Assembly (NCBI RefSeq): GCF_900102545.1
Contig: NZ_FNBN01000001.1
Location: 1,256,221 to 1,320,220, forward strand
Reading direction: 5' to 3'
DNA: 64,000 bases
DNA from: Chitinophaga filiformis
GTDB lineage: Bacteria; Bacteroidota; Bacteroidia; Chitinophagales; Chitinophagaceae
Position 1 is the stretch's first letter, and the number at the start of each line of letters is the position of its first letter. The notes under the pieces are model-generated. The model was not told the origin of the DNA. It saw only the letters and a list, made by a program, of their open reading frames with translations, and ran no database searches. Made by a program: the position numbers and the translations under genes. Shown here piece after piece: positions 1 through 8,830 of this stretch.

Positions 1-303
1 GTCATTCATTTCACGGGCCAGTTCCTGCAGCTTACGGGCATAAGCGAAAGCTGAATCATATTTGAAAACCTTGAACTGTTCATATAACTGCTGGCAAATG
101 TCAAACTGCTGCTGCAGGGGTAAATGCCTCGCTGCTGCAAATGCCTGCCTCAGAGTATGTATCTGTTTCAGTTTTTCTGCATCATATATATGTGCATTTT
201 CTATTGTCAGATTCAGTTTCTCCAATAAACTATCCCCGGCAGATCCGGCAAATGACAATTTACATGCAACTAGCAATAACAAACAAATAAGCTTCGATTT
301 CAT
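1..303 (-). CDS. DUF6377-like protein, N-terminal part (cut by window edge)
   Basis: This reading frame starts at an ATG at 303 and runs off the left edge, so only about 101 residues are visible. They begin with a hydrophobic signal peptide (MKSKLICLLLLVACKLSFA). A charged helical region follows, with the pattern of the Bacteroidota DUF6377 family: DSLLEKL near the start and later YEQFKVFKYDSAFAYARKLQELA. DUF6377 proteins are TPR-like membrane-anchored proteins, often annotated as regulators; the rest lies outside the window. The ATG overlaps the stop of the WYL regulator gene upstream (ATGA, 300-303), so the two are probably translationally coupled. Family assignment is from memory of the N-terminal pattern. 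Confidence 0.7.
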   Translation of the reverse strand, partial: MKSKLICLLLLVACKLSFAGSAGDSLLEKLNLTIENAHIYDAEKLKQIHTLRQAFAAARHLPLQQQFDICQQLYEQFKVFKYDSAFAYARKLQELAREMND

Positions 304-1340
304 TTTTCAGTTTTGTGGAATAGTAGCGGGTCGCTGTAATTGATCACCCCCTGCTGCATCTTTTTCTGCATTCTGGCTACCAGGTTTGCCGGCGACAGAA
401 CCGTCATTCCGTCTCCGTATCCGAGGATTTCCCTTTCCAGCTCAAAATTCAGTTGGACCTTCAGGCTAATAACGATGCCATCTTCCCGGGTCTCTATCAG
501 CTCCTGGGTATGATGCATTGGTTTTGTGAGAATGTATGGCGCGTGTTCATGACTGACAAGTATTTTTACATGCTGGGCCCGCAGATTAGTAGAAACTGTC
601 ACTCCCACTACATCCCTATAATAGGTTGCCGGCTCCATATCATCATTTTCGATATATAAAGGTGTGTCCAACAGTTCCAGTTCATGTATCCTGTCCAGCG
701 CCAGGTGGGTAATTACCATACCTTTTCCCTTTACCCCCACTGCAAACCACCTGTTTTTAAACTCCTTCAGCCACCAGACATGGTATTCAAAAGTGTTGCC
801 ACTCTTTGCACGAAAAGACTGATAGGTGATCTTCACCACTTTTCTTTGTATCACTGACTGATACAGCAGCTCCAGGTGCTCCAATCCCTTCAGCCGCTCA
901 TTCTTTTCAAAGTCAATAACTGACCGCGTATTGTGAGAGGCTGCGTACACATGATCCTCCAGTTTCTGCACTACCTCATTCAGACTACTGAAATGAGAGA
1001 AGCCTTTGAATTGTTTAAGCACTTCCACGGCTTCATTCATACGACTCAGGTCAACGTCGTTCAAAGGAATTTTAGTGATACTGTAGTCCGGATCTTCATA
1101 CGTGTAATATTTCTTGTCCACGACAATGATCGGCGCACTATATCCCAGCTTATCACTCCGCATGGCCTGCAGGTCCATCTGGATGGCACGCCGGCTGATC
1201 CCTTTTTCAACGCCCTCATATTCGTACAATGCATCTCCTACTGCGTTAATAAGATCTTGTAACGTCCATTTCCGTAAACGGTTCCGGAGACAGGAATCTA
1301 TAGTTCTGTAACGGATAAGGGCATTCTTATTAACAGGCAT
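300..1340 (-). CDS. WYL-domain transcriptional regulator
   Basis: The protein has 346 residues. The N-terminal ~90 residues form a winged-helix region (WTLQDLINAVGDAL, then ISRRAIQMDLQAMR as the probable recognition helix). The middle part (about 160-235) is a WYL domain and the C terminus a WCX-like extension. The signature is degenerate: W-F-A in NRWFAVGVK where W-Y-L is usual. WYL proteins are transcription factors whose Sm-like WYL domain is thought to sense nucleic acid or nucleotide ligands, and they often control defence and RNA-repair loci. The gene is divergent from the tRNA-like RNA and slipin region, and a paired TGCGCA motif sits between them. It is the likely regulator of that unit. 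The start at 1340 is the only ATG that includes the whole HTH. Confidence 0.85.
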   Translation of the reverse strand: MPVNKNALIRYRTIDSCLRNRLRKWTLQDLINAVGDALYEYEGVEKGISRRAIQMDLQAMRSDKLGYSAPIIVVDKKYYTYEDPDYSITKIPLNDVDLSRMNEAVEVLKQFKGFSHFSSLNEVVQKLEDHVYAASHNTRSVIDFEKNERLKGLEHLELLYQSVIQRKVVKITYQSFRAKSGNTFEYHVWWLKEFKNRWFAVGVKGKGMVITHLALDRIHELELLDTPLYIENDDMEPATYYRDVVGVTVSTNLRAQHVKILVSHEHAPYILTKPMHHTQELIETREDGIVISLKVQLNFELEREILGYGDGMTVLSPANLVARMQKKMQQGVINYSDPLLFHKTEK

Positions 1341-1413: not shown

Positions 1414-2000
1414 TATTGTCATCGCCGATGACACAGTTACAAAAGGCTGCGGTGGACCCGACGAGGGTTTCTGAATGGCCCCGTAGTATTGCCACGATTC
1501 GCTGGTAATATGCTGCTGCCGCAAGTGTTTGTTACTATATCTATATGTGCGTAGGTTCGATTCCTGCTCCTCTGAAAAAGGATAGCTCAGCTGGTAGAGC
1601 AATAGACTTTGAACCTGAAAAGTTCAAACCTGGACTTGAAATCCAAACTCCAGCAGATGGCAAACTGCTTTAACAACTGCCGTTTCTAACTAAGACAGGG
1701 TAGCAGCCCGGCAGAGAAGCAAAAGGCTTCTTCTCCATCTGCAACCGCCTTGAAAAAGGCAGATACCGCTGTTGAACGTGCAACTGCTCTCAGGCCGGGT
1801 ACCTGGTTTATACCTATACCGGTATCCCTGTACCTTGCGTAGCCCACCTGGCACCATGGCCGGGAACATGTTTCACCGACAACAACTCAAGCCCGCTTCC
1901 GCAGGTAACAGAAATGGTAGCTACCCTACAGATACACCACTCCCCCGGGAGTCTTTATATAATTATAATTTACTAATCCCTAAACCGAAACGATAGATTT
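1414..2000 (+). other. Long non-coding leader between promoter and slipin gene
   Basis: About 590 bp without a convincing gene. It contains the permuted tRNA-like domain annotated separately and several further hairpins: ACCC/GGGT near 1456-1468, TTTGAAC/GTTCAAA at 1608-1628 with loop CTGAAAA, AGAAGC/GCTTCT near 1715-1730, and GCCTT/AAGGC near 1747-1760. CTGCTG (1513-1518) could pair with CAGCAG (1651-1656) around the tRNA-like domain. The richness in short stems suggests a structured RNA that may form the 5' part of the slipin transcript. A 74-codon open frame from 1772 to 1996 has no recognisable features and is not accepted as a gene. Confidence 0.5.
1540..1606 (+). ncRNA. Circularly permuted tRNA-like RNA domain
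   Basis: All tRNA helices can be drawn here, but in permuted order. The 3' half of the anticodon stem is TCTAT (1540-1544), followed by a 6-nt variable region. A canonical T-arm comes next: GTAGG, loop TTCGATT, CCTGC (1551-1567). A short acceptor-like stem TCCT/AGGA (1568-1571/1579-1582) is capped by the 7-nt loop CTGAAAA instead of ending in CCA. Then come T1583 and A1584, matching tRNA positions 8 and 9. The D-arm is GCTC, loop AGCTGGTA, GAGC (1585-1600). A1601 and the anticodon-stem 5' half ATAGA (1602-1606) pair exactly with 1540-1544. The chain therefore opens in the anticodon loop and closes at the acceptor end. Bacterial Y RNAs carry a tRNA-like module, and Band-7 repair loci have been reported to encode a tRNA-like RNA. 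This one lies directly upstream of a Band-7 gene. The pairing was worked out by eye. Confidence 0.72.
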
Positions 2001-3107
2001 ATGATAACACGTACAAAAGTAGCAGCATATACCAAGGCATTGGTGTTCAGAAACAATCGCTACATTAAGACGCTGGAAGAAGGTACTCACTGGGTGAAGT
2101 CTGCCGAGCAGGTGATGCTTTACGATATGACAAAGGCATTCCAGCCTTCTATCGACCTGAATATTCTATTACAGCATACAGAACTGGCAGAAGCGCTGGA
2201 AGTGATCACTGTAAAGCAGCAGGAAATCGCCCTGCTGTATGAGAACGGCTTGTTCAAGTCTGTATTGACTTCCGGAAAACACGCGTACTGGAAGGGCATA
2301 GCTGAGTACAGCGTTACGCTTATAGACCTTTCAAAGTATGAGATCACCGAGCAGGTGGAACGCGCCATCCTGGTAAGACCGGAATTACAGCCTTATGTGA
2401 GGTTCTACACCATAGAATCCTATGAAAAGGGATTACTGTATGTAGATGGAAAGTTCAACAAAGCGCTTGAACCGGGTATACATTATTTCTGGAAGAATCC
2501 AGTTGCACTGACAGTATACAAAACAGATATCCGGCAGTTGCAGATGGAGATCAACGGACAGGAGATCCTGACAAAGGATAAGGCCAATATCCGTATCAAC
2601 TTCACTGTACGTTACAGTGTGGCCGACATCTACAAACTGGTGGAAAATAAGGAATATGATAAGCAACTGTATGTATTGCTGCAGCTGGCGCTAAGAGAAC
2701 AGGTGGCAGTGTATACGCTGGATGAACTGCTGGATAAAAGAGACGAGATCTCTCCAATGGTGATGAATACAGTAGCAGAGAAGGCGCTTCACCTGGGGGT
2801 GCAGCTGCTGGATTGCGGTATCCGCGATATCATATTACCAGGTGATGTGAAGGAGATCATGAACCAGGTACTGATAGCTGAAAAGAAGGCGCAGGCCAAC
2901 AGCATCATGCGAAGAGAAGAAACAGCAAGTACCCGCAGCCTGCTGAATACAGCAAAGCTGATGGAAGAAAATGAAATGCTGTTCAAGCTGAAGGAGATGG
3001 AATATGTGGAAAAGATAGCAGACAAGATCAGCAACATTACGCTTAGTGGTGGTGGAGACATTGTAGGACAACTGAAGCAAATATTCGTACCAGCAAAGAA
3101 GGGGTGA
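2001..3107 (+). CDS. Slipin / SPFH (Band-7) family protein
   Basis: The protein has 368 residues and no obvious transmembrane segment. The N-terminal half contains three related segments of about 40 residues, starting near 12, 75 and 141, each with the pattern (A/G)L(L/V)(Y/F)x-N/D-G followed by GxHxxWK. The second half is the SPFH/Band-7 core: NGQEILTKDKANIRINFTVRYSVAD, then ALREQVAVYTLDELLDKRDEI and VQLLDCGIRDIILPGDVKEIMNQV. A charged, probably coiled-coil tail (AEKKAQANSIMRREETASTRS) follows. SPFH proteins form oligomeric scaffolds, and slipins of this type recur in bacterial RNA-repair gene clusters. The gene follows a non-coding region holding a tRNA-like fold, and a hairpin overlaps its stop codon. 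A scaffold role for RNA repair is inferred from context. Confidence 0.88.
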   Translation: MITRTKVAAYTKALVFRNNRYIKTLEEGTHWVKSAEQVMLYDMTKAFQPSIDLNILLQHTELAEALEVITVKQQEIALLYENGLFKSVLTSGKHAYWKGIAEYSVTLIDLSKYEITEQVERAILVRPELQPYVRFYTIESYEKGLLYVDGKFNKALEPGIHYFWKNPVALTVYKTDIRQLQMEINGQEILTKDKANIRINFTVRYSVADIYKLVENKEYDKQLYVLLQLALREQVAVYTLDELLDKRDEISPMVMNTVAEKALHLGVQLLDCGIRDIILPGDVKEIMNQVLIAEKKAQANSIMRREETASTRSLLNTAKLMEENEMLFKLKEMEYVEKIADKISNITLSGGGDIVGQLKQIFVPAKKG

Positions 3108-5019: not shown

Positions 5020-5732
5020 TTAGGCAATAGTTCCGACCACTGCAGATGCGCAGGCAATTCCTGGTTGCTGAATTCTATATGAACCACCCTACGTTTATGA
5101 TTATTGGTCGTTCTGCTGGAAGCGTGCAGTAGCAGCGGACGCATAATCATCATTCCTCCTTTACGCACATTACATGAAACTTCCGTTTCCTTAGACCAGT
5201 CGATCGTCTCGGGGCGATAAATACCTTTGCTATGAGAACCGGGCACTACTCGTAAAGCCCCGTTGTGCTCATCAGTATCATCGAGGTGGATGCGGATGGT
5301 AAAATTATTTTCCAATATTGACAATGGCGGCTGTACAGCATATTGCTGTTGTTTTACCGTCCAGGGGCCAAATCCCGGAACATCGGCTTTTTCCTTAACG
5401 GAAATAGTAAGGTCCTGATGATAGGACACAAACCAATTGGAATCGCCAGGTTTATCAAAATAAATAGATTTTACCGCCCGGTAGCCCTCTCCGAAAAGCG
5501 CATTGATCTTTGCTATCAATACAGGTGTAAAGATAGCGGGAACTGCATCGGGCACCTCTTTCAGAAATTGCCGGATTGCAAACAGGTCTTTCGTTTTACG
5601 AAAGGTTGCATTAGAGCTGTCTGCCTGCTGAATAAGCGCAATCAGTGAATCTACTTCTCTATCTGTGAATACATTCTCTATCACTGCAAATCCATTCACA
5701 GCTATTTGCTGCTCGTATGTTTCCCCGTTCAT
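5016..5732 (-). CDS. PhyH-family Fe(II)/2-oxoglutarate dioxygenase
   Basis: The product has 238 residues. The facial triad is visible: H105 and D107 in SYHQD, and H203 in LLLHASS. An Arg pair at 214-215 (HKRRVVHIEF) is placed to bind 2-oxoglutarate. The fold corresponds to the phytanoyl-CoA dioxygenase family, whose members hydroxylate small molecules, lipids or amino-acid side chains. The start overlaps the stop of the upstream nucleotidyltransferase gene as ATGA (5729-5732), and that gene overlaps the next in the same way. This dioxygenase is therefore made as the last cistron of a tightly coupled three-gene operon with two nucleotidyltransferases. That context suggests an RNA- or nucleotide-related substrate, which is inference. 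Confidence 0.85.
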   Translation of the reverse strand: MNGETYEQQIAVNGFAVIENVFTDREVDSLIALIQQADSSNATFRKTKDLFAIRQFLKEVPDAVPAIFTPVLIAKINALFGEGYRAVKSIYFDKPGDSNWFVSYHQDLTISVKEKADVPGFGPWTVKQQQYAVQPPLSILENNFTIRIHLDDTDEHNGALRVVPGSHSKGIYRPETIDWSKETEVSCNVRKGGMMIMRPLLLHASSRTTNNHKRRVVHIEFSNQELPAHLQWSELLPN

Positions 5733-6805
5733 ATATGCTGTTTATAGAACTGTTCTCTTATGCTTACAAGAATAGCTTCCGCTTTATTGATATCTGGTGT
5801 TTCCGGCAGGCCAGAACGCTCGTAAAGCTCGTCCATCCTCTCCAGCTTTTCATCTACCATCTTCAGAAGGTCGTCGTATTCGAACTCTCCACTTTTGATC
5901 CTCAGCAGAAAGTCCCTGTCCTTTCTTTGTACAATCACCTTACGCTCCACAGCTATCTCTTCTGCCATACTTAACAGACGAAAAGTATGCATCATGTTTT
6001 TGGCATCGTAGTTCTTACCATGCGTCAGGGTGTTCTGGTACCTGGTGTCATTACGTTTTTCCACCCATTCCCAGTATTCAAGATATTCCCTGCAATAGAC
6101 AGAATAACCATCCTTGTTGAAATTCATAACAGCCAGGTGGGGGATGCCTACAGGAATGGAACTTAGCTGTACATCGTTGGCAGCTTCCCCGGATACAATA
6201 CCTTTCAGGAAGCTATTATCCGTTATCTGGTGCTGATGGAACAGCAGATAAACATCCCTGAAGTGGGGCACCTGCGTCAGACCACAATCCTTCTGTGAAT
6301 AGCCCTGACTATCCAGCCATTGCTGAAGGGGAATACTGCCATTGCCGGCAATGACATAGCAGAAATCCAGTACAGATTTACGCTTTTCATCTATCGGACG
6401 ATGAATTTTCTTATTCAGTCCTTTTGCCTTTTTTATCTGCGATGCCGCGTAGCCAGCGAAGGTGTCTTTACATAATTTCGACAGGAAATCTTCCGGCCGG
6501 ATCTGATCCATGAGGGTATGACGAAACAATACACAATCGGTCGGAGTGCTCAGAAGTTCAACAATGTTAGGATTATTCTTACTCAACAGATCTATAAATC
6601 TGCCTATTTCAAAATAGACCTCATCATTTGTACTGTTGGAGATTTGTGGGGTATAGGTCAATCCATACAGCTCACTCGGCGGCAACACAAAGATCCCTTT
6701 AATGTCTGTATCAGATGTAGGGGAGTGCAGATGTTGTGCCCTGCTGCCTCTGATGCATTTCAGCAGCAGGTGTTGGGTACCGGATTGCAATTCTTCTAAA
6801 GTCAT
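5729..6805 (-). CDS. YcgL-type predicted nucleotidyltransferase (first paralogue)
   Basis: The protein has 358 residues. The DNA polymerase beta-like nucleotidyltransferase motif is at the N terminus: G20-S21 in IRGSRAQHL, followed by SDTDIKGIFV with D32 and D34 as metal ligands. The family is the COG3541 (YcgL) group. A long alpha-helical C-terminal region follows, including DEKRKSVLDFCYVIAGNGSIPLQQW and a charged tail. The substrate is unknown. Such enzymes occur in predicted RNA-repair clusters, where they may add nucleotides to RNA ends. The start overlaps the stop of the upstream paralogue (6802-6805) and its stop overlaps the PhyH start, so translation is coupled on both sides. It differs strongly from the second enzyme, so this is not a recent duplication. 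Confidence 0.85.
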   Translation of the reverse strand: MTLEELQSGTQHLLLKCIRGSRAQHLHSPTSDTDIKGIFVLPPSELYGLTYTPQISNSTNDEVYFEIGRFIDLLSKNNPNIVELLSTPTDCVLFRHTLMDQIRPEDFLSKLCKDTFAGYAASQIKKAKGLNKKIHRPIDEKRKSVLDFCYVIAGNGSIPLQQWLDSQGYSQKDCGLTQVPHFRDVYLLFHQHQITDNSFLKGIVSGEAANDVQLSSIPVGIPHLAVMNFNKDGYSVYCREYLEYWEWVEKRNDTRYQNTLTHGKNYDAKNMMHTFRLLSMAEEIAVERKVIVQRKDRDFLLRIKSGEFEYDDLLKMVDEKLERMDELYERSGLPETPDINKAEAILVSIREQFYKQHI

Positions 6806-7560
6806 TGGGCATTTATATGTTTTCTGAACAGTGTATTCAGTTCAGTAGTGTTATGTTGTACTGCCGGCAGGAGTGAGGCCTGCTCTTTACAGTAAGCGAT
6901 CATCTTTTCAATCCAATCCTGCAACAGCAGCACCGGTGCGATAGTCGTTTTTTCGTCAGATACCTTCTTTCGTACCAGCAGATCATCCGTAGCCGCGTTC
7001 CACGCTTTATCATTAATAAGCGTTCTCAACTCCTTAAATGTAATAGGCGGCACCGTCTTTCTCTCAATGATCCACAAGGCCGCCAATACAGGTCGTAATG
7101 CATAGAAATACTTCTTGATCCTCACCTGCTCTCCCTGCAAATCATGCTCAAAGGTATTCCTTGCCATGGAAATATAGTGATGACATCCTGCACGTCCGGA
7201 AAAATATGTCCCTGCCAGTTGCAATAACTCACTTCTGAAATTACCCTGTTCTTTATATACAATGGGTGATTGCAGCCATTCGTATAAAGGGGGATTTGAT
7301 TTCAGGAAGAGCTGTAATACTTTTCGTATATCCCATCCACTAATGTCCAGCACTTCATTGACAGGCAATTCTATCACATCTTTTCTCTCTTCTATACTGA
7401 GATAGTTATCAGCAGGTTGTGCATAAATGAATCGTACATCGTAGTCACTATCTGGTGATGCGAAGCCCCAGGCACGGCTTCCGGACTCACAGGCATAGAG
7501 CATCCTTACATTCTTTTCCTGCTCTATTGTTAGCAATTTCTCAATGATAATATCATTCAT
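6802..7560 (-). CDS. YcgL-type predicted nucleotidyltransferase (second paralogue)
   Basis: The protein has 252 residues, shorter than its neighbour. The nucleotidyltransferase motif is complete: G27-S28 in CESGSRAWGF and the acidic pair D39/D41 in SPDSDYDVRFIY. Residues about 90-250 are helical, with SGRAGCHHYISMARNTFE and KKYFYALRPVLAALWI, as in COG3541 proteins. It is the first gene of a leftward operon with ATGA overlaps to the next two genes, so equimolar synthesis of two nucleotidyltransferases and a dioxygenase is likely. The ATG at 7560 faces the promoter of the divergent small-ORF region. Action on RNA 3' ends is inferred from the surrounding tRNA-like elements. Confidence 0.87.
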   Translation of the reverse strand: MNDIIIEKLLTIEQEKNVRMLYACESGSRAWGFASPDSDYDVRFIYAQPADNYLSIEERKDVIELPVNEVLDISGWDIRKVLQLFLKSNPPLYEWLQSPIVYKEQGNFRSELLQLAGTYFSGRAGCHHYISMARNTFEHDLQGEQVRIKKYFYALRPVLAALWIIERKTVPPITFKELRTLINDKAWNAATDDLLVRKKVSDEKTTIAPVLLLQDWIEKMIAYCKEQASLLPAVQHNTTELNTLFRKHINAQ

Positions 7561-7651: not shown

Positions 7652-7679
7652 CATCGCAAAACAAAAATACAACAATATC

Positions 7680-7772
7680 ATGTTACGCATACAGCTACAT
7701 TCAAAACCACAAAGTTTCTACTGCCTGATTGATGGCAATAGCGCTTGCGGAGCATGTTATGCTACAGAATAG
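7680..7772 (+). CDS. Possible 30-residue peptide with Cys-rich end
   Basis: An ATG 22 nt after the predicted transcription start opens a 30-codon frame (MLRIQLHSKPQSFYCLIDGN and then SACGACYATE). The end carries three cysteines, two of them in a CGAC motif. The A-rich upstream sequence is usual for Bacteroidota start sites. It lies alone between a promoter and a strong terminator, so the unit is either a micro-protein gene, a leader peptide or a small RNA. I know no homologue. Confidence 0.35.
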   Translation: MLRIQLHSKPQSFYCLIDGNSACGACYATE

Positions 7773-7801
7773 TTGATAATAACTGATTCAATATAACACA
7801 G

Positions 7802-7828
7802 GCCCCGCAAGCAATTGCGGGGCTTTTT
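7802..7828 (+). terminator. Strong rho-independent terminator
   Basis: A perfect 9-bp GC-rich stem (GCCCCGCAA with TTGCGGGGC) with a GCAA tetraloop is followed by five T. It ends the first small unit, or acts as an attenuator ahead of the downstream tRNA genes. Confidence 0.85.
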
Positions 7829-7848
7829 CTTTTACCTGAAATTACGCC

Positions 7849-7992
7849 ATGCAGCAAATACAAATATCACCCATACGATTTAAACAGCTCAGTGCAGGAT
7901 TATTATCATGCACAGGCCATAGTCATGCGTGGATGTATGCAGGTATTGATCTATGCCCTATTTTTCAACGACCCAATTATAGTCTGATTTAG
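7849..7992 (+). CDS. Possible 47-residue peptide
   Basis: A frame of 47 codons (starting MQQIQISPIRFKQLSAGL, ending QRPNYSLI) lies between two strong terminators, starting 20 nt after the first and ending 26 nt before the second. It has no recognisable domain, no signal peptide and no good ribosome binding site. It could be a micro-protein or chance coding in a small RNA. The repeated layout of small frame then terminator is what makes it worth listing. Confidence 0.25.
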   Translation: MQQIQISPIRFKQLSAGLLSCTGHSHAWMYAGIDLCPIFQRPNYSLI

Positions 7993-8017
7993 CGTACGCT
8001 CATCTCAGTTACATATA

Positions 8018-8066: not shown

Positions 8067-8139
8067 TGGCCTGTAGCTCAATGGTGAGAGCGACTGCCTT
8101 ATACGCAGCAGGTTGCCGGTTCAAATCCGGCCAGGCCAA
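8067..8139 (+). tRNA. tRNA with UAU anticodon (Ile-type codon AUA)
   Basis: A full cloverleaf of 73 nt: acceptor TGGCCTG/CAGGCCA (perfect), T8 A9, D-arm GCTC/GAGC, anticodon stem ACTGC/GCAGC (outer pair A-C mismatched), loop CTTATAC giving anticodon TAT, variable loop AGGTT, and T-arm GCCGG-TTCAAAT-CCGGC. The discriminator is A, with no encoded CCA. U33 is present, so it looks able to decode. A UAU anticodon is rare in bacteria, where AUA is usually read by tRNA-Ile(CAU) modified to lysidine. This tRNA is therefore either a specialised isoacceptor or a non-translational tRNA kept in this cluster. Confidence 0.85.
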
Positions 8140-8145
8140 CAATTT

Positions 8146-8220
8146 TTCCGGGTAGTGTAATGGTTAACATATCACACTTTGACTGTGATGTTCTCAGTTC
8201 GAATCTGAGCCCGGAAACCA
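8146..8220 (+). tRNA. tRNA-Gln (anticodon UUG), CCA encoded
   Basis: A cloverleaf with acceptor TTCCGGG/CCCGGAA, T8 A9, D-arm GTGT/ACAT, perfect anticodon stem TCACA/TGTGA, loop CTTTGAC (anticodon TTG), a 4-nt variable region and T-arm CTCAG-TTCGAAT-CTGAG. The discriminator A is followed by a genomically encoded CCA (8218-8220), unlike its two neighbours. It begins 6 nt after the preceding tRNA. Confidence 0.88.
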
Positions 8221-8222
8221 AA

Positions 8223-8300
8223 TGAGCTGTAGTTCAATGGCAAAACGCCCGGGCCCCGCAAAAGCCTTGGAGTTGGAGGGTTCGACTCCCCCTGGCTCAC
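8223..8300 (+). tRNA. tRNA-like gene with enlarged anticodon arm
   Basis: The acceptor TGAGCTG/TGGCTCA (two wobble pairs), T8 A9, a weak D-arm (GTT/AAC) and a T-arm GAGGG-TTCGACT-CCCCC (one mismatch) are recognisable. The central arm is abnormal: 23 nt instead of 17, best drawn as CCCGGGC/GCCTTGG (one mismatch, one G-U) with a 9-nt loop CCCGCAAAA. There is no U33 and no normal anticodon. It cannot be assigned an amino acid and may be a pseudo-tRNA, decoy or substrate RNA. It is followed 44 nt later by the YkuK-like gene. Confidence 0.65.
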
Positions 8301-8344: not shown

Positions 8345-8830
8345 ATGCAACAGATCAACAAATGGAGACGGTTGAATGGTGAGAAGATTAACATGCCGAT
8401 AGCTGATGAAATCAGCAACATGCTCGCTGCAGAAAGGGAAGCAGGTAATGAACTGAAGGTGTGTATCGGTACCGATAGCCAGGTAAAGGGCAGGGTTACC
8501 GAATTCGCTACGGTGATTGTTTTTATCCGGAAGGGTAAGGGCGGATTCATGTACATCCATGCTGACAGCACACTGCGCAAAATGAGTATCAAGGAACGGA
8601 TGCTTGAAGAAGTAGGCAAGAGTATCGAAGTGGCCTATTCACTGTGCAACATCTTTACCAGGTACAATGTGGACATGGAAGTGCATGCTGACATCAACAC
8701 CAACCCTAACTTCAGGAGTAACGATGCATTGAAAGAAGCAATGGGGTACATCATGGGTATGGGTTTCACCTTCCGGGCAAAGCCATATGCATTTGCGAGT
8801 ACTTCCTGCGCAAACAAAATAGTTCATTAA
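8345..8830 (+). CDS. YkuK/DUF458-type RNase H-fold protein
   Basis: The product has 161 residues and matches the usual length of the YkuK (DUF458) family, predicted to have the RNase H fold. Acidic residues in typical strand contexts are D44 in CIGTDSQVKG and D116 in VHADINTNP. The C-terminal part (NDALKEAMGYIMGMGFTFRAKPYAFASTSCANK) is also typical. Enzymatic activity of this family is not established to my knowledge. It lies directly downstream of three tRNA genes on the same strand, so it is probably co-transcribed with them. A role in processing or degrading those RNAs is a reasonable inference. Confidence 0.82.
   Translation: MQQINKWRRLNGEKINMPIADEISNMLAAEREAGNELKVCIGTDSQVKGRVTEFATVIVFIRKGKGGFMYIHADSTLRKMSIKERMLEEVGKSIEVAYSLCNIFTRYNVDMEVHADINTNPNFRSNDALKEAMGYIMGMGFTFRAKPYAFASTSCANKIVH

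Follow-up and report, generated by a model that had tools for sequence, protein, structure and literature searches.

What kind of RNA is held by the 660 nt that separate a divergent WYL regulator gene from a slipin gene in Chitinophaga filiformis, and what might it do for the protein encoded beside it? The window analyzed here is the whole 64,000-nucleotide stretch (contig NZ_FNBN01000001.1, positions 1,256,221 to 1,320,220), to which the positions below refer. A preliminary description proposed a circularly permuted tRNA-like body in this region, opened inside the anticodon loop and inserted into a longer RNA. All of the tRNA elements named there are present at 1540–1606 (module M1): one anticodon strand is followed by the T arm, a closed acceptor hairpin, U8-A9, and the D arm, and the other anticodon strand ends the series. 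Comparison confirms the permuted character of M1 and its opening within the anticodon loop.

300–1340, minus strand: divergent WYL-WCX regulator (profile match)
1540–1606, plus strand: M1, circularly permuted tRNA-like module, very probably of Y-RNA type (comparison, covariance model)
1540–1544 and 1602–1606, plus strand: anticodon-stem strands TCTAT and ATAGA of M1
1545–1550, plus strand: V-like segment of M1
1551–1567, plus strand: T arm of M1 (GTAGG-TTCGATT-CCTGC)
1568–1582, plus strand: closed acceptor-like hairpin of M1 (TCCT/AGGA stem, 7-nt loop)
1583–1584, plus strand: TA, the U8-A9 equivalents of M1
1585–1600, plus strand: D arm of M1, with GG within the loop
1601, plus strand: equivalent of nucleotide 26 in M1
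1939–1952, plus strand: terminator-like hairpin and T-rich tail, upstream of slipin (weak; one found versus 0.5 expected)
2001–3107, plus strand: slipin-like SPFH/Band-7 protein, 368 residues (Pfam Band_7, 5.3e-33)
5729–6805, minus strand: RlaP (RNA repair pathway nucleotidyltransferase), partial match
6802–7560, minus strand: RlaP, full-length match
8067–8300, plus strand: three tRNA genes, Ile-TAT, Gln-TTG, and Cys-GCA (ARAGORN)
8345–8830, plus strand: RNase H-like protein PF04308, a recurrent neighbor at slipin loci

The proposed M1 fold is the minimum-energy fold (−14.8 kcal/mol); as a single-sequence energy this is unremarkable, with 26% of 500 mononucleotide shuffles folding equally well, and the minimum-energy fold of 1500–1700 loses the M1 anticodon and D helices. 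Single-sequence energy is thus uninformative, and the case for M1 rests on comparison. ARAGORN calls neither a tRNA nor a tmRNA at M1, and Rfam at the gathering level places three ordinary tRNAs elsewhere in the window with no match at M1.

The slipin structure model predicts three homologous SPFH1-type β repeats (residues 2–176), an SPFH core, and a long helix, and shows no N-terminal helix. The WYL-WCX protein is the probable regulator of the locus. RtcB was not found in the first 12 kb of the window. The tRNA trio is possibly a remnant of the tRNA arrays at other slipin loci; the order of tRNAs followed by the RNase H-like gene is that of those arrays, but here it lies ~5 kb from slipin.

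Conservation and covariation upstream of slipin genes

The comparison comprised 80 slipin loci fetched from named genomes together with the window (81 in all), those closest to the window being from Chitinophaga. When the slipin strand was searched with a strict descriptor calling for a T arm, a linker hairpin that closes on itself, U-R, and a D arm, 67 of the 81 loci, the window included, had a module no more than 1 kb ahead of slipin; elsewhere the descriptor gave 20 hits in ~620 kb, ~16 of which resemble tandem tRNAs by eye. A looser parser, with covariance models R1 (run on 23 of the 80 loci) and R2 (run on 13), raised the count to 80 of 81, in agreement with the proposed link between the RNA and slipin. 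Four of these modules are weak (L033 and L060, 35 bits; L036 and L037, 23 bits) and score no better than the tandem-tRNA hits of the same R1 search, which reach 41 bits. The parser yielded no M1 candidate in 14 loci (L033, L036, L037, L054, L058, L060, L062, L068, L077, L083, L097, L100, L102, and L105), of which R1 later recovered all but L100, the sole locus without a module, whose contig begins 67 nt before slipin.

The M1 alignment (A2; 66 of 73 candidates, 65 of them distinct) excludes three misclassified second modules (L087, L090, and L107) and four near-duplicates (L043, L079, L082, and L091). In it 96.5% of cells are paired, versus 40%–53% in slid controls (33%–53% across the alignments of both modules), and 16 of 19 pairs are changed on both sides. 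Compensatory changes, which the preliminary description had named as support for its stems, are present in every M1 helix, including those at issue in homologous slipin loci: all five pairs are changed on both sides in the anticodon helix and likewise in the acceptor-like helix 3 (95.1% paired). Among 40 sequences picked to exclude Chitinophaga (alignment A5), 96.4% of cells are paired, again with compensatory changes in every helix, and the covariance model built from them (R2) finds M1 at 63.6 bits (E 8.7e-20 in 205 kb). Since the alignment rows were selected by a descriptor or parser that demands pairing, the percentages paired are inflated, and the pair types and the independent model constitute the stronger evidence.

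A second module, anticodon-like arms, and a pseudoknot

M1 is embedded in a longer structured RNA, as proposed, with flanking hairpins, a pseudoknot and, in relatives, a second module. The single tRNA-like body first described is therefore correct but incomplete: by the looser parser, at least 43 of the 81 loci carry a second module (M2) in which T arm, acceptor hairpin, and D arm precede a complete anticodon arm. In the M2 alignment (A3; 43 of 49 candidates), 94.4% of cells are paired and 18 of 21 pairs are changed on both sides. Neighboring T arms (n = 58) are spaced by 57–74 nt in 51 cases, 84–88 nt in three, and >300 nt in four; by the strict descriptor, 25 of 81 loci have two hits, with one spurious case. 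One locus (L067, 3006–3207) has three serial tRNA-like modules before slipin, two of M1 type and one of M2 type.

The seven-nucleotide loops of M2 (n = 42) present 20 different anticodons and follow much of the grammar of anticodon loops, with a pyrimidine at position 32 in 42 of 42, U33 in 35, a purine at 37 in 41, and A38 in 37. The real tRNAs of the same loci are stricter with respect to U33 (262 of 266), and G37 follows G36 in 11 of 12 M2 loops versus 18 of 101 real tRNAs.

An ordinary tRNA formed by the D arm of M1 and the T arm of M2 was considered and rejected, the median 13-nt linker being too short for an anticodon arm; the Rfam tRNA model scores about 29–38 bits at M1-M2 junctions. 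Across 42 pairs, pairing with the own partner versus cross pairing is 1.0 versus 0.32 for the anticodon strand and 0.96 versus 0.60 for the acceptor, a comparison biased because the parser chose paired options.

The consensus fold of a set of 20 loci, mostly Flavobacterium, shows an additional hairpin ahead of M1. After M2, a pseudoknot is identified by a strict descriptor in 29 of 75 loci, with 0.4 expected from mononucleotide shuffles and 3 found in 400 random segments. In the window, M2 is reduced, and M1, two anticodon-like hairpins, and the pseudoknot are retained:

1608–1628, plus strand: hairpin with a 7-bp stem (TTTGAAC/GTTCAAA) that varies in relatives, and a 7-nt anticodon-loop-like loop (CTGAAAA)
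1631–1645, plus strand: anticodon-stem-loop-like hairpin TGGA-CTTGAAA-TCCA, the counterpart of the M2 anticodon arm of relatives
1652–1681, plus strand: H-type pseudoknot (S1, 1652–1656/1665–1669; S2, 1659–1662/1678–1681)

The hairpin at 1608–1628 occupies the place of the M2 body in relatives, and by eye its stem differs in sequence in L031–L034 with pairing retained. In L032 both strands of pseudoknot stem S2 are altered (CGACA/TGTCG). A reduced M2 body with a retained anticodon-like hairpin is likewise found in several Chitinophaga loci.

Gene neighborhood and possible functions

tblastn searches of the 81 loci, the window included, identified RtcB at 27 (two at under 40% identity), an RNase H-like protein at 24, WYL at 23, RlaP at 22, an AAA ATPase at 15, and HEPN at one, where the HEPN (AbiU2) gene lies between RtcB and RlaP (L045, 6852–7553). 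None of RtcB, RlaP, RNase H-like protein, and HEPN was detected in 30 of the 65 loci with full flanks. The AAA ATPase recurs upstream of the RNA (L052, 2321–3397; L073, 1196–2272), and an apparently unrelated cobalamin riboswitch (86.1 bits) is found on the minus strand upstream of one slipin gene (L078, 2650–2838). Three or more tRNA genes are called by ARAGORN in 38 of 80 slipin stretches, a few of which calls may be modules themselves. Ten loci have 10–19 tRNA genes near slipin (L048, L052, L054, L058, L062, L068, L072, L083, L086, and L087), the largest set being the 19 genes of L048, and the arrays often immediately precede the RNase H-like gene PF04308. By analogy with the Anabaena trn operon, they could possibly be stress-induced sets of replacement tRNAs.

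Outside the Bacteroidota, nine records of the plasmid collection, from E. coli, Citrobacter, Burkholderia, Photobacterium, and Subdoligranulum, encode a slipin with query coverage of at least 80%. The gene complement is rtcR, slipin, and RlaP in Citrobacter; RtcR, slipin, and RtcB in Photobacterium; RtcR, slipin, RtcB, and RlaP in Burkholderia; and slipin and RlaP in the E. coli record, with no rtcR listed beside slipin. At least 80% of the E. coli slipin segment is present in 1,617 of 5,426 E. coli genomes, and with a related RNA-slipin-RlaP segment in ~30% of complete genomes of this species the system should be testable in a laboratory organism. The E. coli and Citrobacter RNAs are divergent, R1 recognizing only the T arm and closed hairpin (14.5 bits), and the enterobacterial leader represents a different architecture. 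A T arm and other G+C-rich hairpins are seen in these leaders (L159, ~7690–8000; L163, ~7655–7960), and an element, TGCGCAGT, is common to them and to that of Subdoligranulum (L161). In one Burkholderia unit a GAAA loop, by eye, replaces the anticodon loop. Of 50,697 phage records, none reaches 80% coverage of slipin; a relative is encoded by the viral contig L158, where 168 nt are present upstream. No PADLOC model matches slipin or RlaP at E 0.001.

A sigma-54-like element, judged by eye against the consensus, is present in E. coli, Citrobacter, and Burkholderia, and a weaker one in Photobacterium. The Bacteroidota promoter TANNTTTG was tried and rejected, occurring upstream of the RNA in one of 75 loci, and no replacement motif was found upstream of the slipin RNAs.

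We consider the best overall explanation, held with moderate confidence, to be that the RNA is a slipin-linked permuted tRNA mimic that serves an RNA-repair system instead of Ro60, as a tether. The tethering mechanism taken by itself is more tentative and is modeled on the Y RNA between Ro60 and PNPase. The RNA and slipin would be expressed together under the control of tRNA damage, exerted in Proteobacteria by RtcR together with sigma-54 and in the window probably by the WYL protein; slipin would oligomerize as other SPFH proteins do; and the tRNA-shaped modules would tether RtcB, RlaP, or damaged tRNAs to the slipin scaffold. The N-terminal repeats of slipin, the frequency of RtcB, RlaP, RNase H-like proteins, and tRNA arrays among its neighbors, the presence of RtcR in three proteobacterial loci, and the second module with its intact anticodon arm are consistent with this proposal. 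The terminator-like hairpin between RNA and slipin, itself weak, counts against it, as do the lack of an RtcB hit in the first 12 kb of the window, the full-flank loci in which none of the repair genes was detected, the limited R1 match of the E. coli and Citrobacter RNAs, the modules that score in the range of tandem tRNAs, and the lack of a reported effect of deleting PaFlo8 (below). In the available text of the respective studies, Anabaena TrcR represses slipin, RtcB, and a tRNA operon, such that in a trcR mutant RtcB is 77-fold up, slipin is 42-fold up, and the tRNA operon is activated (PMC10272220); PaFlo8 is an SPFH gene within the P. aeruginosa rtc locus, for whose deletion that text reports no effect on growth, swimming, biofilm, or oxidative stress (PMC13086221); the Salmonella rtcBA operon is regulated by damaged tRNAs (PMC7790460); and jumbo-phage ROT/TROVE is described as an RNA-repair platform with a tRNA-like partner (PMC7824862).

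A doubtful though concrete alternative is that tRNA-like bodies present their anticodon arms to anticodon nucleases as sacrificial decoys, the cleaved bait either occupying the nuclease or signaling through its 2′,3′-cyclic-phosphate ends to RtcR-type regulators. The anticodon-loop grammar of M2, its variety of anticodons, and the survival of the anticodon-like hairpin where the M2 body of Chitinophaga is reduced all point in this direction, and the Salmonella authors suggest, in the text available, that YrlA might competitively inhibit a nuclease, although by the same text YrlA fragments were undetected after DNA damage (PMC7790460). The looser U33 and the prevalence of G37 after G36 in M2 loops argue against the proposal, as does M1, which occurs in more loci than M2 and has its break within the anticodon loop. 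What nonetheless gives the bait hypothesis its definite form is the doubling of the module, with an anticodon arm that varies.

It is unlikely that the modules and pseudoknot form a cis-acting leader controlling slipin expression via tRNA-handling proteins or ribosomes. Such a role would fit the location of the module on the slipin strand wherever both strands were searched, the 330–689 nt between the last T arm and the slipin start codon (75 parsed loci), the terminator-like hairpin, and the pseudoknot; however, the module-slipin distance is loose, and the same module adjoins TROVE in the form of separate Y RNAs.

Equally improbable as a whole is a joint reading in which the locus encodes a soluble, vault-like bacterial RNP. 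An SPFH cage with N-terminal β repeats would surround an RNA core made up of permuted tRNA mimics strung together, one of which would present its anticodon arm as bait; the particle would be switched on when tRNAs are cut and would concentrate RtcB and RlaP with damaged tRNAs, the mimics having arisen from tandem tRNA duplicates by shortening of the acceptor loop, with Photobacterium as a possible intermediate. In its structure model, slipin resembles the major vault protein (MVP) of the vault particle, which also contains vault RNA, in having repeated small β domains before an SPFH domain and helix, and among the 50 matches listed for the full slipin model MVP accounts for all eight whose alignment begins ahead of residue 10. 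There are differences: no sequence match between slipin and MVP was found, the slipin repeats alone fit SPFH1 subdomains better and number only three, and the vault particle forms a cage, whereas slipin is known here from its gene and a structure model.

Permuted tRNA genes exist in algae and archaea, and RtcB, a neighbor at a third of the loci, could in principle ligate the cut RNA into a functional tRNA, for which M2 has a full anticodon arm and, by eye, a 7-bp acceptor stem in some loci; this is very improbable, as the acceptor hairpins inspected by eye lack CCA and many are <7 bp, anticodons differ between the close Flavobacterium loci L079 and L082, and the Chitinophaga L033 loop CTTTAAA would read a stop codon.

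That M1 is an artifact, the remnant of a T arm from one tandem tRNA gene and a D arm from its downstream neighbor, is scarcely credible despite the tRNA arrays near many slipin loci, since the linker closes as a short covarying hairpin, the anticodon strands covary across the module, and ARAGORN calls no complete tRNA beside M1 in the window. Tandem tRNA duplicates are nevertheless a general source of false Y-RNA hits. Their junction presents a T arm, two pairable acceptor strands, a D arm, and matching anticodon strands, and R1 scores them highly (up to 58.8 bits) because identical copies can pair across it. All 12 long-span R1 loci checked straddle two neighboring tRNA genes, 11 with the same anticodon, and an 81-nt R1 hit (52.3 bits) spans tRNA-Pro and tRNA-Arg; a single tRNA (Lys, Val, or Asp) is repeated in tandem in L122, L124–L126, L128–L131, and L136–L138. 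Such duplicates would offer a simple route to permuted tRNA mimics, and we infer that the module may derive from them by shortening of the spacer. The Photobacterium leader (L162, 7620–7848) is a candidate intermediate: its units before slipin look canonical, scoring 54.1 and 46.4 bits as tRNAs, and score 50.5 bits as a permuted module, the minimum-energy fold taking the permuted hairpin.

Relation to YrlA, Ro60, and RNA-repair operons

The topology of M1 had been thought to merit description. The permuted fold is real, but its topology is already that of the bacterial Y RNA YrlA (Rfam RF02553), whose structure (6CU1) superimposes on tRNA in circularly permuted fashion according to the available text (PMC11472068). 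At a permissive threshold the YrlA model matches 1525–1634 of the window (plus strand) over its whole length (1–114) at 37.1 bits (E 1.8e-6 in 660 nt; 5.3e-6 over the genome), so that Rfam does hold a matching family, although the score is under the gathering cut-off of 69 bits. In this genome the two Y RNAs linked to Ro60, at 40.2 and 38 bits, are also below the cut-off, which is exceeded in none of 195 family genomes. At E 0.001 the model matches 56 of these 195 and 6 of 14 control genomes, never above the cut-off; as control genomes also match, the YrlA match is support that would not alone settle the identity of M1.

In addition to the slipin-linked module, the C. filiformis genome (G000) encodes Ro60 and the Y RNAs that go with it, the two loci being separated by ~0.89 Mb on one contig:

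C9:371131–371940 of G000: TROVE (Ro60)
C9:372630–372697 and C9:372996–373062: TROVE-linked Y RNAs (R1)

Ro60-linked Y RNAs are likewise recovered by both R1 and R2. At E 0.001, R1 matches 197 of 198 Bacteroidota genomes, because tandem tRNAs match too. When the hits in these genomes are restricted to ≥50 bits and ≤80 nt, a span limit chosen after viewing the hit list, all 20 lie within 2 kb of a full-length slipin (seven) or TROVE (13); with direct checks of two missing cases added, the module is within 2 kb in seven of seven full-length-slipin genomes and 14 of 14 TROVE genomes. On these sequence comparisons, M1 is very probably a Y-RNA-type RNA of a slipin repair system. One RNA module appears with a second, unrelated protein partner, and its occurrence with slipin and Ro60 in one genome means that partner-specific and module-specific functions are separable.

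Burroughs and Aravind reportedly paired SPFH/Band-7 proteins with a novel tRNA-like RNA in RNA repair in 2016, probably the same slipin and tRNA-like RNA as here. The permuted topology was already known from YrlA, and the slipin link was reportedly proposed in that study. As far as the literature searched extends, the identification of the slipin RNA as a Y-RNA module, the partition between slipin and Ro60, M2 with its anticodon arm, the pseudoknot, and the tandem-tRNA route are new; no paper on the slipin RNA was found in that search, which lay outside subscription papers.

M1 and YrlA have in common the permuted T arm, closed acceptor hairpin, U8-A9, and D arm, an open end formed by the anticodon-stem strands, and linkage to RNA-repair genes. 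In YrlA, as described in the text available, the stem holds Rsr and the tRNA-like domain binds PNPase (PMC8394870). The slipin RNAs differ in that their partner gene is slipin rather than Ro60/Rsr, in that they may carry another permuted module whose anticodon arm is closed and, at certain loci, a pseudoknot, and in that no Ro-type basal stem was seen in the consensus folds of two sets of slipin loci, including double-module loci. The YrlA model aligns end to end with the window, many of the basal pairs being non-standard; of the Ro60-linked Y RNAs of this genome, one has a long predicted basal stem and the other folds differently in isolation. The gene arrangement is closest to the Salmonella RtcR-rsr-yrlBA-rtcBA operon, which in the available text likewise places a protein and a tRNA-like RNA beside RtcB under RtcR (PMC7790460); Burkholderia and Photobacterium differ from it in having slipin and its RNA in place of Rsr and Yrl, and Burkholderia also in having RlaP after RtcB.
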